From the NCBI RefSeq assembly GCF_005862235.1, contig NZ_VCEK01000002.1:434001-498000 (forward strand): a DNA stretch of 64,000 nucleotides. Direction: 5' to 3'. Shown here piece by piece: positions 20,562-27,488 of the stretch. The DNA comes from Saccharomonospora piscinae. Its GTDB lineage: Bacteria; Actinomycetota; Actinomycetes; Mycobacteriales; Pseudonocardiaceae. Each line of letters starts with the position of its first letter. Position 1 is the stretch's first letter. Position numbers and translations under genes: made by a program. The notes beneath the pieces were generated by a model. It saw only the letters and a list, made by a program, of their open reading frames with translations. It made no database searches and was not told the DNA's origin.

Positions 20562-22397
20562 TCAGGCCAGGTTGCGCTTGAGGGTCGCCAGTTCGTCGAG
20601 CAGGGCGGGGGGCACCGCGTCCCGGCCGATCTTGTCGAACCACTCCTCGATGAGCGGGATCTCCTGCCGCCACTCGTCGCGGTCGACGCGCAGTGCGGCC
20701 TGGATGTCGGACAGCGGCTCCGACAACCCGTCGAGGTCGAGGTCGTCGGCGTCGGGCACGAAACCGACGGGCGTCTCGGTGGCCGTCGCGTTGCCCTCGA
20801 TCCGCTCGATGATCCACTTCAGCACCCGCGAGTTCTCGCTGAAGCCGGGCCACAGGAACCGCTTGTCGTCACCGCGCCGGAACCAGTTCACGTAGAAGAT
20901 CCGGGGAAGCTTCGAGTCGTCGGCCTGTGTGCCGACGTCCAGCCAGTGCTGGAAGTAGTCGCCCGCGTGATAGCCGAGGAACGGCAGCATCGCCATCGGG
21001 TCGCGGCGCACCTCACCGACCTTGCCCGCGGCGGCGGCCGTCTTCTCCGACGACATCGTCGCGCCCATGAACACGCCGTGCTGCCAGTCGCGCGCCTCGT
21101 TCACCAGCGGCACCGTGGTGGCACGGCGACCACCGAACAGGATCGCCGAGATCGGCACGCCCCGCGGGTCGTCCCACTCCGGCGCGAGGATGGGGCACTG
21201 CGACATCGGCGTGCAGTACCGCGAGTTGGGGTGCGCCGCGGGCTCGCCGGCCGCACCGTCCGCGGGCGTCCAGTCCTGCCGCTTCCACGACGTCAGGTGG
21301 GCGGGCTTGTCCGCCATGCCCTCCCACCACACGTCACCGTCGTCGGTCAGCGCGGTGTTGGTGAACACCGTGTTCCCCTGATCGATGGTGCGCATCGCGT
21401 TCGGGTTGGTGTGGTTGTCGGTGCCCGGCGCCACGCCGAAGAACCCGAACTCGGGATTGGTGGCGTAGAGCCTGCCGTCCTCGCCGAAGCGCATCCACGC
21501 GATGTCGTCGCCGAGCGTCTCGGCACGCCAGCCCGGGATGGTGGGTTGCAGCATCGCCAGGTTGGTCTTGCCGCAGGCGCTGGGGAACGCCGCCGCGACG
21601 TAGTACGCCTTGTTCTCCGGGGAGATCAGCTTGAGGATCAGCATGTGCTCGGCCAGCCAGCCCTCGTCGCGGGCCATCACCGAGGCGATGCGCAGGGAGT
21701 AGCACTTCTTGCCGAGCAGCGAGTTGCCGCCGTATCCGGAGCCGTAGCTCCAGATCGTGCGGCTCTCGGGGAAGTGGCTGATGTACTTGGTGTCGTTGCA
21801 CGGCCAGGCGACGTCGCGCTCACCCGGTTCGAGCGGCCTGCCGACCGAGTGCAGGGCGGGCACGAACTCGCGCTCGGCGCCGTCCTCGGTCACGAACCGG
21901 TCCAGTGCCGCCTGTCCCATGCGCGTCATCACCCGCATCGAGGCGACGACGTAGGCGAAGTCGGTGATCTCGATGCCCAGCTTCGGCTCGTCGGCGCCGA
22001 GCGGCCCCATGCAGAACGGGATCACGTACATGGTGCGGCCCCGCATGCAACCGCGGTACAGCTCGGTCATCGTGGCCCGCATGCTGTCCGGGTCCATCCA
22101 GTTGTTGGTGGGGCCCGCGTCGCGCTCGCGCTCCGAGCAGATGAACGTCCGCTCCTCGACCCGGGCGACATCGCTCGGGTCGGAGGCCGCCCAGTACGAA
22201 TTGGGCCTCGCCCGCAGCGGCACGAACGTGCCCGCCTCGACCAGTTCGGCGTTGATGCGCTCGGCCTCTTCGTCGGAGCCGTCCACCCACACGACCCGCT
22301 CGGGCGTGGTCAGCTCGGCGACTTCCCGCACCCAGGAGAGCACGCCGCTGTGCGTCGTTGGTGCCTTCTCAAGACCGGGGATGGCTACTGCAGTCAT
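20562..22397 (-). CDS. pckG: Phosphoenolpyruvate carboxykinase (GTP)
   Basis: This 611-residue enzyme converts oxaloacetate and GTP to PEP, CO2 and GDP, linking the TCA cycle to gluconeogenesis. The GTP-type kinase-1 loop [13 protein letters not shown] (about 277-289) contains the reactive Cys; other family blocks are [20 protein letters not shown] (20 residues, about 215-235) and the kinase-2 region [13 protein letters not shown]. Length is normal for the family. The ATG has AGGAG 6 bases upstream. It is monocistronic, with convergent Nramp on one side and a terminator on the other. Confidence 0.97.
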
Positions 22398-22708: not shown

Positions 22709-23401
22709 TCAGTTCTGACTGATCCACTGGCCGGTGGCCGAGTCGATCCGCGCGACACCCTCCAGTGGCGCCGGGGCGCCCCATGCGCTGTCCTCGCCCG
22801 AGGCACCGTCCGCGCCCGAGGGCGTGACGCTGTCCACCTCGGTCCACTCACCGTCCCCGGTGTGCTCGTAGGTCGTGGCGGCTCCGGTTTCGTCGATCTC
22901 GACAGCCACGTCGGCCTCGCCGTCGCCGTCGGCGTCGGTGAAGGCGAGCGTGGTGCCGTCGTCCGTGGTGACCACGGCCGTGTCGTTGACCCCGTCGTGG
23001 TCGGTGTCCACGGTGGCGGGCCCCACCTCGGTCTCCCCGCCCGGCAGGTCCGCCGTGATCGTGCCCGCGCTGGTCTGCGTCTCGGTGTCGTCGGGGCCGG
23101 TGCCGCCGGACTCCTCACCGACCCAGTCGCCGCTCGCGTCGTCGTACTCGGCGTAGGCCACGGTCTCGCCCTGCGCGTTCATCGCGAGATAGCCGTCGGC
23201 GTCCCCGTCACCGTCCGTGTCGACGAACGCCTGAACGCTGCCGTCCTCGCGCTCGATCAACGCGGTGTCGGCGACGCCGTCCTCGTCCATGTCGAAGTTG
23301 ATCTCAGCCGAGTAGTCCTCACCCTCGACGGTGATCAGCAGATCCTCCGACGTCCCCTCGGGACCGGTGGCCTCGGTCCCGCCACTCTCCTCGACCCACA
23401 C
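22709..23401 (-). CDS. Acidic protein with four calcium-loop-like repeats (DUF6802-like)
   Basis: This 230-residue very acidic protein contains four DxDxDGxxD loops in two pairs: DMDEDGVAD (about 37), DTDGDGDAD (about 61), DTDHDGVND (about 129) and DADGDGEAD (about 153). Each is followed by a short beta-type strand, resembling dockerin or EF-hand Ca-binding loops. The C-terminus ends in a conserved-looking SATGQWISQN. The GTG start has GGAGGGGG about 8 bases upstream. I see no signal peptide, so export, if any, is non-classical. Function unknown; the family name is from recollection. Confidence 0.75.
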   Translation of the reverse strand: MWVEESGGTEATGPEGTSEDLLITVEGEDYSAEINFDMDEDGVADTALIEREDGSVQAFVDTDGDGDADGYLAMNAQGETVAYAEYDDASGDWVGEESGGTGPDDTETQTSAGTITADLPGGETEVGPATVDTDHDGVNDTAVVTTDDGTTLAFTDADGDGEADVAVEIDETGAATTYEHTGDGEWTEVDSVTPSGADGASGEDSAWGAPAPLEGVARIDSATGQWISQN

Positions 23402-23504: not shown

Positions 23505-25358
23505 TCAGCCCTGCCGGGGGCGGTCCCGCAGCGCTCTGATGCGGTCGAGGAAGCGCTCGGCCTGGCCCTGGCCCTCCTCCACCTCCTTCACCCGCCGCGA
23601 CACCTGGGCGAGCTTGGTGGTGCGCTCCTTCTCACCCATCCTGATCGTGGTGTCGAGTTCCTTGAGCTCCGCCTCGATCGCCTCGATCCGCCTGCTGAGC
23701 GCGTCGTCGAGCGCCAGTGACAACTGCTGCTCCGCCTCGATCAGCTGCTCGGCGACCAACTGGTCGAGTGTCGACCGCGCGTCGGCGATCGACTCGATGA
23801 GCCACTGTTTCGCGTGTTGCTTGTCGGCGGCGTGGCGGCGGGTCCGTGCCATCCACCACCCCGCGCCGAGGCCGATCACGATGGTGGCCGGAAGCACCAC
23901 CGGAGTGAACAGCGCCGCGCTCACGAAGGGCGCGGCCACCAGCTTCGCGGCCCCGGCGCCGCCGGAGACACCCATGAACACGAGCAGCTTGTCCTCGGCG
24001 GTGGGCGGCCTCCGGTCCGGCGGGCGCAGCACCACGGGCGGTCCGCCCGCCCTCGCGAACTGCGAGCGGATCACCGCGAGTTCCTCGTCGGAGAACAGGT
24101 CGGCGAGTACCGAGTCCGTCACCTGGTTGACCCGCTGCGCGAGCAGGCCCGACACCCGCTGCGAGACGGCCTGCAACGCGGCGTCGACCTGGCCCGGAAG
24201 GCCCGCCAGCTCGTCCTTGGCCGCCGCGTCGATGCGCTGCCGGAAGTGGGCCTGCCCCTCCCGCATCTGCCTGCTGACCTCGTGCCCGAGTTCGACCCGC
24301 GCACGCTGCACCTCACCACGCAGGCGCAGCTGCCAGCCCTTCGTGGACGAGCGCCGATCGGTGACCAGCTGGTCCCGCCGTTCCCTGAGCCGTTGCGCCT
24401 CCGACTCACCCGAGCTCAGCGCGCGCTCCCGCGCCGCCAGCGCGGCCCGCTGCTCGCCCAGCGCGCTCGACAACGCGCGGAGCGTGTTGGCCTCGCCCAG
24501 CATCGCCGAGCGCCCCACCAGCAACTCCTGCAGCGCGGCCTGCAACTCGGCCACCCCGGACTTCTCCCGCAGCATCGCGGCGGCCTGCTCGTTCGGCGCC
24601 GTGGCAGCCAGCTCGAACATGCGCGCCGAGACCGGGTGGATGGGGGAGTCCGCGAACCGCGGAGCGTGCTCGGCGAGCAGCGCCCGGTTCGCGTCGAGGA
24701 TCTGCCGCCAGCCCCGGTACTGGTCGGTCTTGGACAGCGCGAACACCACCGTCTCGACCCGGTCGGCCATGGTCGTCAGAAACCGCAGTTCGGGCGCGGT
24801 GAACGGGGCCGAGGCGTCGACCACGAAGAGCAACGCGGTGGCCGTCGCGGCGGCCTCCATCGCCAGCTCACCGTGCGCCGAGTCGAGCCCGCCCACACCG
24901 GGCGTGTCCACGACGCTCAGCCGCTCCAGCAGCGGCACCGGGCCGGCGACCTGCACGTAACGCGGGGGCAGCTGTCCCTCGGGCAGGTCGTGGCGGGCGC
25001 TGGCCCAGCGCTCCAGCTCGGCAGGCTCGAACCCCACCGGAGCGAGCTGCCCCGGATAGCACGCCTGGGCCTGCCACTCTTCCGCGTGCTCGAACACGAC
25101 GTAGGTCGAGGTCGCGACCTCGGCCTCGACCGGGGACAGGCCCGGCGTCGCCAGCAGCGCGTTCACCAGCGAGCTCTTACCCCGGTTCGTCTCGCCCACC
25201 ACGACGACGGAGGGGGTGCCCGTCGTCGCCCCACGTTGCCGCTCGACCCAGGCCGCCGCCGAGGAGTCCAGATCGCGCAGCAGGGCGGACAGCGACTCGC
25301 GTGCCTTGCGCACCTGCGCGGGCAGGCCGGGTTTGCCGATCGAGGGTGCCGTGCTCAC
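23505..25358 (-). CDS. Dynamin-like GTPase B, with membrane hairpin
   Basis: This 617-residue protein has GTPase motifs G1 GETNRGKS (55-62), G3 DTPG (151-154) and G4 SKTD (209-212), followed by long helical stalk segments (about 290-430 and 520-600). A hydrophobic stretch (about 458-502, ending GLGAGWWMARTRR) should form a membrane hairpin. This pattern matches bacterial dynamin-like proteins such as Streptomyces DynB or mycobacterial IniA/IniC partners, which remodel membrane. The GTG at 25358 is chosen since upstream frame extension overlaps the GrpE-like gene. It is the third gene of the GTPase A-GrpE-GTPase B unit, 55 bases after the GrpE-like stop. Confidence 0.88.
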   Translation of the reverse strand: MSTAPSIGKPGLPAQVRKARESLSALLRDLDSSAAAWVERQRGATTGTPSVVVVGETNRGKSSLVNALLATPGLSPVEAEVATSTYVVFEHAEEWQAQACYPGQLAPVGFEPAELERWASARHDLPEGQLPPRYVQVAGPVPLLERLSVVDTPGVGGLDSAHGELAMEAAATATALLFVVDASAPFTAPELRFLTTMADRVETVVFALSKTDQYRGWRQILDANRALLAEHAPRFADSPIHPVSARMFELAATAPNEQAAAMLREKSGVAELQAALQELLVGRSAMLGEANTLRALSSALGEQRAALAARERALSSGESEAQRLRERRDQLVTDRRSSTKGWQLRLRGEVQRARVELGHEVSRQMREGQAHFRQRIDAAAKDELAGLPGQVDAALQAVSQRVSGLLAQRVNQVTDSVLADLFSDEELAVIRSQFARAGGPPVVLRPPDRRPPTAEDKLLVFMGVSGGAGAAKLVAAPFVSAALFTPVVLPATIVIGLGAGWWMARTRRHAADKQHAKQWLIESIADARSTLDQLVAEQLIEAEQQLSLALDDALSRRIEAIEAELKELDTTIRMGEKERTTKLAQVSRRVKEVEEGQGQAERFLDRIRALRDRPRQG

Positions 25359-25413
25359 GGGGCGGAACCCTATCGTGGCGCCGTCCCGCCCCGGGGGCTC
25401 GCGGTGTGCGCGG

Positions 25414-25860
25414 TCAGCGCCGGGTGTAGACGGTGACGATCGGCGCGCGCAGCAACCGCTCGTGATCGACGAAACCGACCACCTCGGTCTCGGCCACCGT
25501 GCCCTCCAGCGTCCCGTCCTCGGTCGGCACGGCACCGCCCGCCTCGTGCAGCGAGGGGTCGAACCGCTGACCGTCCGGCCGCAGGGCGTGCACGCCGATC
25601 CCGGCGAGGCCCTGCTCGATCCGCTCGGCGACGCCTCCGCTGCGGGCGCGGTCCATCGCGTAGAGGCACAGCTGGACGAGCGTGTGTCGGTCTGCGAGCG
25701 CCCGCTCGTGGTCGATCGGCGCTGCGGCTACTCCCACGGGTTCCACGCCGGACTTCGACGCAGCCGCGGGCACGCCGGTTCCCGGTGTCACCGCCTCGTC
25801 GCCGCCGCCGCGAGAGGGCAGGATGCGGCCCGTCGGGGTGTCCTCGTCGAGCACGCTCAC
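25414..25860 (-). CDS. GrpE-like nucleotide exchange factor
   Basis: This 148-residue protein matches the C-terminal half of GrpE: a helix (about 55-82, LVQLCLYAMDRARSGGVAER) and the beta domain with LRPDGQRFDPSLHEAGGAV, GTVAETEVVGF and APIVTVYTR. It lacks the long N-terminal coiled-coil of housekeeping GrpE (about 180-220 residues) and replaces it with a ~50-residue Pro/Gly-rich segment. The GTG has GGGAGG 6 bases upstream and overlaps the GTPase A stop (GTGA), so translation is coupled. No DnaK gene is in the window. A role in recycling an Hsp70 acting on the dynamins is inferred. Confidence 0.82.
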   Translation of the reverse strand: MSVLDEDTPTGRILPSRGGGDEAVTPGTGVPAAASKSGVEPVGVAAAPIDHERALADRHTLVQLCLYAMDRARSGGVAERIEQGLAGIGVHALRPDGQRFDPSLHEAGGAVPTEDGTLEGTVAETEVVGFVDHERLLRAPIVTVYTRR

Positions 25861-27488
25861 CGGCTGCCTCCCTGTGCCTTCAACTGCTGCCAGATCAGGA
25901 AATACGCCCGGTGTACCACGTGGGCGACCCGGCTCTGTGCGGGAGTGGCACCGAACGACGCGAACGAGCGCCACCAGCCTGCCCGCTCCAGTGCGTAGGT
26001 CGCCAGCTCCGGCGGTGACCCACCCGGCCTGCCCAGTTGGGTCCCGATGTCGGCGTTGCTGCCCACCCGCAGCACCTCCTCGGTGAGGTCGTCGGGCATC
26101 TCCACCGCGCCGGAGGCCACCAGCGTCAGCGCCTCGAGCACGCGGAGCTGGTGCGCCTCGGGCTTGGCGAGCAGCACCTCGATGGCGTCGTGGACGCGCT
26201 GCCGTTCCGCCGCGTTGCCCGAGGCCTGCGCGAGGGCGGTCACCGAGGCGAGCGCGGCCGCCGCCTTGATCCCGTCCGCCCGCGCCGCGAACACGGTGTT
26301 CAGCCTCGCGCGCACGGCCGCGAGGCCCGAGGCGTCGAGCAACAACCGCCGCAGCGCACCCGCGGTGAGGTCCGGGTCGGCCCGCACCGCGTCGACGGCC
26401 TGCCGGATGCCGTAGAGATCCAGCTTCTCCAGCAACCGCACCCGAACCCCGGCGGGCACGTCGCACTCCCAGCTCGTGAACATGTCGGCGGACAGCAGCA
26501 TCACGTCGAGCACGTCGTCGCCCAGGCCGGCCACCTGCCGCAGGGCCTCCGCGTCGCCCGACGTGAACTGTCCCGACTCCGCGGACTCCGCGATCAGGCC
26601 GATGACCGGCAGTACGTCGGCCACTCTCGGCTTCAGCACCTCGGCCTGCTTGCGCGCCAGCAGGGTCGCGGCCGTCCACAGATCACCCTCGGCGCCCTCC
26701 ACGGACTCCGGCACGATCGTGTCGGCCTTGTTCAGGACCGCGATCGCGTTGACCGGCCCCGCCTCCCGGCTCGCGGTGGCCGCGGTGAACGCCGCGAGAG
26801 CTTGCTCGTCGTCCGCGCGCAGCCCCTGGGTGACGACGTAGAGCACGGCCTCGGCCCCGGCCACCGCGTTGCGCGACGTCTCGTCGAGCTCGTCGGCCCG
26901 CGCCTCGGCGTCCCCGCGCTCGTCTCCGGTCTCGTCGGTCCCGTCACCGCTCTCGCCGCTGTCCCAGGGCTCCGGCTCGGCATGGCCCGCCGCCGCGCTG
27001 AGCAGGTGTTCCGTCCTGGCCACCGACGCGGCGTCGAGCGATCCCAGCCCCGGTGTGTCGATCACGGTCATGTGCTGGAGCGCCGCGTGGGTCAGGTAGG
27101 CCTCGATGTGCGAGACGGTGTCGATGTCCACCCCGAGCTCGGCGGGAATCACGCCGTCGGCCGCGAACGGCAGCACCTGCTTGCGGCCGTCGTGGAACAC
27201 GACCTCGATGCGGTCCACCGTGCCGTACTGGAAGCGGGTGACCAGCCGGGTGCATTCGCCGATGTCGGTCGGCGCCACCCGCCTGCCGATCAGCGCGTTG
27301 ACCAGCGTCGACTTGCCCGACTTGATCCGCCCGGCCACGGCCACCTGCAACGGAGCGCCGAGGCGGCGCAGCACCTGCGCGAACCCGGCCGCCGTGCGTG
27401 GCGACACCTGCGGCTGCAATCGGCGGCACAGGTTGGCCACCGACGCCGACAGCGGCCCGGCCAGCCTGCCGGCGTGCTCCGTCGTCAT
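25857..27488 (-). CDS. Dynamin-like GTPase A
   Basis: This 543-residue GTPase has G1 GRIKSGKS (53-60), a threonine-containing switch region (DIGECTRLVTRF), G3 DTPG (144-147) and G4 NKAD (253-256). An acidic Asp/Glu/Gly insert (about 170-205) follows G3. The C-terminal half is helical; no transmembrane helix is seen, in contrast to GTPase B. Paired bacterial dynamins with only one membrane-inserted member are known (DynA/DynB, BDLP pairs), so a heteromeric membrane-remodelling complex is likely. First gene of the three-gene unit; its stop overlaps the GrpE-like start by four bases. Confidence 0.88.
   Translation of the reverse strand: MTTEHAGRLAGPLSASVANLCRRLQPQVSPRTAAGFAQVLRRLGAPLQVAVAGRIKSGKSTLVNALIGRRVAPTDIGECTRLVTRFQYGTVDRIEVVFHDGRKQVLPFAADGVIPAELGVDIDTVSHIEAYLTHAALQHMTVIDTPGLGSLDAASVARTEHLLSAAAGHAEPEPWDSGESGDGTDETGDERGDAEARADELDETSRNAVAGAEAVLYVVTQGLRADDEQALAAFTAATASREAGPVNAIAVLNKADTIVPESVEGAEGDLWTAATLLARKQAEVLKPRVADVLPVIGLIAESAESGQFTSGDAEALRQVAGLGDDVLDVMLLSADMFTSWECDVPAGVRVRLLEKLDLYGIRQAVDAVRADPDLTAGALRRLLLDASGLAAVRARLNTVFAARADGIKAAAALASVTALAQASGNAAERQRVHDAIEVLLAKPEAHQLRVLEALTLVASGAVEMPDDLTEEVLRVGSNADIGTQLGRPGGSPPELATYALERAGWWRSFASFGATPAQSRVAHVVHRAYFLIWQQLKAQGGSR

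Follow-up and report, generated by a model that had tools for sequence, protein, structure and literature searches.

We analysed a window of 64,000 nucleotides from Saccharomonospora piscinae (Pseudonocardiaceae; contig NZ_VCEK01000002.1, positions 434,001 to 498,000; genome size 4.9 Mb), in which three genes on the reverse strand encode two bacterial dynamins and, between them, a protein that retains only the C-terminal domain of GrpE. The first gene (25857..27488, ATG start) encodes GTPase A, an IniC-like dynamin of 543 amino acids with a Dynamin_N match in Pfam (E-value 3.2e-12); it is followed by the gene for the GrpE-like protein (25414..25860, GTG start, 148 amino acids, Pfam GrpE 9.2e-9) and by that for GTPase B, an IniA-like dynamin (23505..25358, GTG start, 617 amino acids, Dynamin_N 6.5e-15). 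The stop codon of A overlaps the start of the GrpE-like gene by 4 nucleotides (GTGA), and B begins 55 nucleotides past the GrpE-like gene. A preliminary description of this DNA, made from the sequence alone, had proposed a three-gene operon at these coordinates with a four-base overlap, and the gene boundaries bore this out in full, while Pfam matches and alignments confirmed the GTPase motifs and the GrpE C-terminal signature that it had listed. All three genes appear to be under purifying selection, because their ratios of nonsynonymous to synonymous substitution rates (dN/dS) were 0.10–0.33 in 12 comparisons, as opposed to 1.4–1.9 in an out-of-frame control for the GrpE-like gene.

IniA and IniC are known mainly as drug-induced mycobacterial proteins, the iniBAC type being known from the isoniazid response. 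The G1, DTPG and NKxD motifs of A were invariant in a 17-row alignment, as were DTPG and the K and D of (S/T)KTD in an 18-row alignment of B; the G1 motif of B was present in P0003 and in the alignment consensus and was missing from the invariant list because two rows had been called from a later start. Hydropathy analysis indicated no membrane segment in A and a hydrophobic segment near residues 471–489 of B. The acidic insert of A (approximately residues 165–200) falls in alignment columns that are mostly gaps and is therefore not a defining feature of the protein. In a phmmer search, B matched Mycobacterium smegmatis IniA (PDB 6j72) almost end to end (residues 36–589, E-value 5.9e-21). A was 28% identical over 451 amino acids (E-value 2e-34) to the IniC-like gene of genome G043, the neighbour of which is an IniA that matches 6j72 with 1014 bits, and B was 29% identical to this IniA over 337 amino acids; because of the 1014-bit score, we read the family in question (f8) as presumably Mycobacterium. 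Since A matches an IniC-like gene and B matches IniA, the two are best classed as an IniC-like/IniA-like pair, by comparisons that drew on IniA and IniC references and on no DynA or DynB sequence. Among the bacterial dynamin pairs that the preliminary description had invoked, the IniA/IniC type is supported by homology. The order here (IniC-like, GrpE-like, IniA-like) nonetheless differs from the iniB-iniA-iniC order of the mycobacterial iniBAC operon, in which IniA and IniC are the dynamin-like proteins and IniR is the regulator. The window genome also holds a second, iniBAC-like locus (L046, G000:C4:212000-230000), with IniA- and IniC-like genes, a divergent Hsp70-like gene (453 amino acids) with degenerate-looking phosphate motifs, an IniR-like STAND/LuxR gene, and an IniB candidate that is labelled by position only and has no Pfam match; we found no match to this candidate near the operon.

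The GrpE-like protein scored 35.6 bits against Pfam GrpE (cut-off 25.8), with a match that covered only positions 99–163 of the 165-position profile, and in the GrpE-like proteins of five relatives the match began at positions 92–105. The long N-terminal dimerisation helix of GrpE is thus absent, and the scores fell short of the NCBIfam GrpE equivalog cut-offs (at best 35.3 versus 184 bits). What the protein has in common with the canonical GrpE of the DnaK system is the C-terminal domain, with the FDPxxHEA motif and the last strands: F100, D101, H105, E106 and G129 were invariant in a 19-row alignment, and the core around FDPxxHEA and G-Y/F was nearly invariant among GrpE-like proteins. Unlike canonical GrpE, some of these proteins carry two N-terminal membrane segments as judged by hydropathy (6 of 23: L064, L065, L184, L186, L187 and L189).

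Whether the same three-gene order recurs among relatives had been suggested as a check, and the order proved to be kept well beyond close relatives. It was present in all 80 named loci (the best 80 of at least 322 confirmed relatives), the genera of which we take to be Pseudonocardiaceae, or for which the record says Pseudonocardiales, and a GrpE-like protein of at least 72 bits was found in 40 of 61 relatives. In a sample of 150 genomes spanning the taxonomic order, 48 contained an A orthologue scoring above 640 bits, and a GrpE-like gene lay within 1.5 kb of A in 46 of these and within 2 kb in 47 (the distance in G523 being 1.9 kb). Genome G046 had a GrpE-like gene and no A on that contig, at a locus (L068) that the gene caller left unparsed; of 20 loci the caller missed this one and L062, whose genome, G059, was placed by profile coordinates, and it also missed the GrpE-like gene of L051, which was found by profile search. 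Because only the best candidates of each genome were scored in the profile searches, absences are to be read as lower bounds. The possibility that the GrpE-like protein is confined to this taxonomic order was rejected, as it also occurs in f103, f105, f106 and f107, families of other orders. Across 393 genomes of the class, 17 had a GrpE-like protein above 70 bits (the next score being 55), and in 14 of the 17 an IniC-like gene was no more than 5 kb away; three of the 14 belong to f1, the window's own family (Pseudonocardiaceae).

Outside f1, the operon is commonly accompanied by a gene for an Hsp70-like protein. Counting genomes with A above 340 bits, and taking only the best Hsp70 of each genome, we found this gene no more than 10 kb from A or B in four of five f3 genomes, seven of eight f4 genomes, all four f13 genomes, and the single genomes of f5, f7 and f11. 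These 18, together with G526 and G539, which were added from reading of the loci, brought the linked set to 20 of the 26 genomes outside f1. The missing f3 genome, G473, gave no Hsp70 match in the profile scan, and lower A scores excluded others from the count (for example, G458, G466, G467 and the f8 IniC-like genes). The linked Hsp70-like gene often lay directly upstream of A, and L066 and L067 have the gene run Hsp70-A-GrpE-B. In G458 the run is B-GrpE-Hsp70-A, and the stop codon of the GrpE-like gene (104 amino acids, Pfam 3.8e-10) overlaps the Hsp70 start; no Hsp70 was found at the second IniC-like locus of this genome (L214) or at the G466 locus (L215). Within f1, G519 has a lower-scoring Hsp70-like gene at a distance of about 5 kb from A. 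In the 12 genomes scanned, the surroundings of the operon contained no DnaJ gene; the closest one was about 50 kb off, in the window genome. At L060 and L061, Hsp70-A-GrpE is preceded by EccC- and EccD-like genes, and at L060 an ISL3 transposase gene and a fatty acid desaturase gene stand between GrpE and B.

The linkage of Hsp70-like genes to these dynamins extends to other orders of the class, in which the IniC-like profile matched 70 of the 393 genomes. From the 41 matches of other orders we hand-picked 20 loci to read, mostly high scorers and including several same-genus pairs, from 10 families. An Hsp70-like gene was present in the same 10–18 kb as the IniC-like gene in 16 of the 20 loci (eight of the 10 families); in three of the remaining four it was found within 15 kb (G610, G862 and G650), and in the fourth (G613) it lay beside a second IniC-like copy. 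GrpE-like genes were detected in four of the 20 loci, and together with an Hsp70-like gene in three. The binomial probability of 16 in 20 was below 1e-16 at 0.3–2 Hsp70-like genes per Mb, a value that rests on these assumed densities rather than on a measured control and that treats as random and independent a set of loci that is neither. By our reading, in 13 of 24 genomes the sole HSP70-family gene besides the DnaK- and MreB-type matches was at most 7 kb away from the dynamin pair, and whenever one of the 24 had just a single gene of this kind, it was located there.

The linked Hsp70-like proteins consist of a nucleotide-binding domain with its ATP motifs present (degenerate in the L046 copy), a proline-rich linker, and usually one membrane helix. 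By a simple hydropathy window, a membrane segment follows this domain in 17 of 20 proteins of one set and 13 of 17 of another; those of L046, L183_02, L184, L258, L261, L262 and L264 showed none. The proteins of L064–L067 end at this segment, as tail-anchored proteins do, whereas those of L060, L061 and L047 continue outside. In all six proteins scanned, the Pfam HSP70 match stopped at positions 368–375 of the 599-position profile, leaving no substrate-binding domain. By this predicted architecture, the linked Hsp70-like protein is not a classical chaperone. The preliminary description had envisaged Hsp70 taking apart a dynamin complex in the way that it acts on clathrin coats; because the scanned proteins have no substrate-binding domain, Hsc70-like uncoating by gripping a peptide is unlikely, and that proposal found no support.

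The window genome has an Hsp70-like gene beside recA (C5:839319-841271), the nearest candidate partner for the operon, which would act in trans. We considered and rejected the possibility that it is the orthologue of the operon copies, in that both a tree of 37 Hsp70 sequences and synteny with recA place it in a distinct group of paralogues: its group (support 92/90) comprised recA-linked genes from f1 and f4 plus three unlinked ones, and was nested in a wider group (97/97) to which operon-linked and type VII secretion-linked sequences belong as well. In the recA-linked copy of the window genome an alanine replaces a glycine of the second phosphate motif. Hsp70-like genes with a predicted membrane helix stand beside recA in two families (L047, L191, L192 and L194), and at L048, L204 and L205 an Hsp70-like gene lies within a type VII secretion cluster (EccC, Hsp70-like, two WXG100 genes).

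At the least, the gene sets and gene orders, the domain losses and the predicted membrane segments establish a conserved genomic association of IniA/IniC-type dynamins with an Hsp70 ATPase free of a substrate domain, which in a subset is joined by a GrpE without its long helix. The reading that fits best, to which we give about even odds, is that this operon represents one version of a module widespread among actinobacteria: an Hsp70-fold ATPase that lacks a substrate-binding domain and is usually membrane-anchored would regulate an IniC/IniA-type pair, and in some lineages it would have a GrpE-type exchange factor dedicated to it. By turning over ATP/ADP, the membrane-bound nucleotide-binding domain would govern the assembly of A and B at the cytoplasmic membrane or their departure from it, probably during envelope stress, and the GrpE C-terminal domain would open the nucleotide-binding domain, free ADP and so set the pace. 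The proteins would thus have to touch one another, the GrpE-like protein would exchange the nucleotide of the Hsp70-like protein, and control would run from the latter to the dynamins; in the window genome the Hsp70-like partner would act from its distant gene. A bolder form, which we put forward tentatively and with more doubt than belief, is that a whole class of bacterial dynamins, the iniBAC type included, is run by a specialised, membrane-anchored, Hsp70-derived motor without a substrate domain, the pace of which is set in many lineages by a GrpE of its own that lacks the coiled coil. If so, Hsp70 would here be a nucleotide switch on GTPase machines and not a chaperone.

Several observations weigh against the proposed module. 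The adjacency of an Hsp70 gene, which the preliminary description had named as something to look for, was common in the other families and failed in the window's own: the best Hsp70-like gene was linked in none of 25 f1 genomes, being unlinked in 18 and lacking altogether above 600 bits in seven, and an Hsp70-like gene was found in the 10-kb flanks of only two of the 80 named loci (L100 and L168). Nor was it linked in f15 (zero of five) or f16 (zero of one). The GrpE-like protein and the rest of the module also part company in both directions, with dynamins and Hsp70 lacking GrpE in G480 and G042 (A 361 bits) and in 13 of the 20 loci read in other orders, where GrpE was undetected, and with a GrpE-like protein lacking an IniC-like match in G762, G624 and G675 in the class scan. 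In addition, the operon-linked Hsp70s formed no single clade in the 37-sequence tree, which has several long branches, and in several ini loci the Hsp70 gene stands beside IniR rather than beside the dynamins.

A further point of the same kind concerns the contacts through which GrpE is known to bind DnaK, most of which are changed on both sides. We used the Mycobacterium tuberculosis DnaK-GrpE structure as the contact reference (PMC10803776). By approximate mapping to the M. tuberculosis GrpE, the GrpE-like protein of the window lacks the D110/P115 loop and has a glycine at the position of S118, and none of the 19 GrpE-like rows has an arginine at either candidate position for R169, although the diverged GrpE-like proteins P0004 and L183 do carry one at the candidate position. 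Among nine rows of Hsp70-like proteins, Tyr257 fell in a gap in eight, its loop was 15 rather than 24 residues long in seven, Tyr106 and Thr60 were kept in none, and Glu236 was kept in four, including the recA-linked copy of the window genome. As judged from these alignments, then, the GrpE-like protein keeps the core signature of its family and has lost or altered most mappable DnaK-contact positions, a pattern that would suit a co-evolved pair and would also suit no binding at all. The loss of DnaK-binding residues had been named in the preliminary description as a refuting outcome, and on this point the result is mixed. Taken as a whole, the interpretation given in the preliminary description is therefore supported in part.

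We weighed three other explanations, the strongest of which, though rather unlikely, is that the genes form a signalling module: the Hsp70-like protein would sense the envelope by an extracytoplasmic part and report to an IniR-type STAND/LuxR regulator, the dynamins would be output genes, and the GrpE-like protein would tune the nucleotide cycle of the sensor. The position of the Hsp70-like gene beside an IniR-like gene in L257, L260, L261, L213 and L046 is in keeping with this idea, as is the extension of several Hsp70-like proteins past the membrane helix. However, a Pfam scan of 12 genes around the Hsp70-A-GrpE-B runs of L066 and L067, which covered part of the 20 kb, turned up no AAA/LuxR protein, and the tail-anchored proteins of L064–L067 have no extracytoplasmic domain with which to sense.

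It is improbable that the GrpE-like protein instead serves ordinary DnaK, either by local release from dynamin clients or by competition with canonical GrpE. All seven f1 genomes that have no high-scoring Hsp70-like gene still keep A-GrpE-B, and DnaK-scoring genes are present in the window genome and in all 24 genomes scanned, both of which speak for this reading. But the GrpE-like protein has neither the D110/P115 loop nor the long helix in which the mutation Mut-1 weakens DnaK binding by M. tuberculosis GrpE (PMC10803776), and the R169 arginine is missing from every one of the aligned rows, although the diverged P0004 and L183 proteins have it. Least probable of all, and only a slight possibility, is that the GrpE-like protein is a scaffold between the dynamins without exchange activity and that the Hsp70 linkage reflects co-regulation in an envelope-stress island, a view consistent with the altered contacts and with the Hsp70-dynamin loci in which GrpE was undetected, but at odds with the near-invariance of the FDPxxHEA and G-Y/F core and with the overlap of the GrpE and Hsp70 genes in G458.

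Elements of the proposed module have been hinted at in published work. One sentence of an iniBAC paper mentions that M. smegmatis has a dnaK-like gene next to iniR (PMC5760070); in the accessible text of that paper and of a second one (PMC6715688), the words GrpE and Hsp70 do not occur. A cyanobacterial dynamin-like protein encoded beside BDLP1 (B2IZD2) has a C-terminal DnaJ-like domain, and is thus likewise a bacterial dynamin tied to Hsp70 machinery, but it uses a fused J domain, and its description, in the portion seen, names no GrpE or Hsp70 gene (PMC6104087). Another parallel comes from the DO-GTPase/GAP1-N2 conflict systems, which are reported to have HSP70 and GrpE in approximately 14% of GAP1-N2 neighbourhoods, a second HSP70 without a peptide-binding domain in a subset, TRAFAC GTPases, and membrane association (PMC7159879). 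The defining components of those systems are, however, DO-GTPases alongside GAP1 and either FNIII or GASH proteins, whereas A and B belong to the Dynamin_N family, and Pfam scans of both proteins and of a subset of their neighbours yielded no match to GAP1, DO-GTPase or FNIII. No dynamin-GrpE operon was described in the titles and abstract openings among the matches listed for open-licence PubMed Central. A conserved ATPase partner and a partly dedicated exchange factor would make the on/off switching of bacterial dynamins testable and, if the proposal holds, would show a relative of Hsp70 working without a substrate-binding domain.

Two neighbours of the operon recur with it. A gene for an aspartate-rich DUF6802 protein (22709..23401, reverse strand, Pfam DUF6802 1.1e-10) is often found downstream of B, and the Pseudonocardiaceae loci that we read have it at the B end of the operon; its membership in the system is unproven. 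A gene for a GTP-type phosphoenolpyruvate carboxykinase (20562-22397) stays near the operon in the Pseudonocardiaceae and in L063, L066 and L067.

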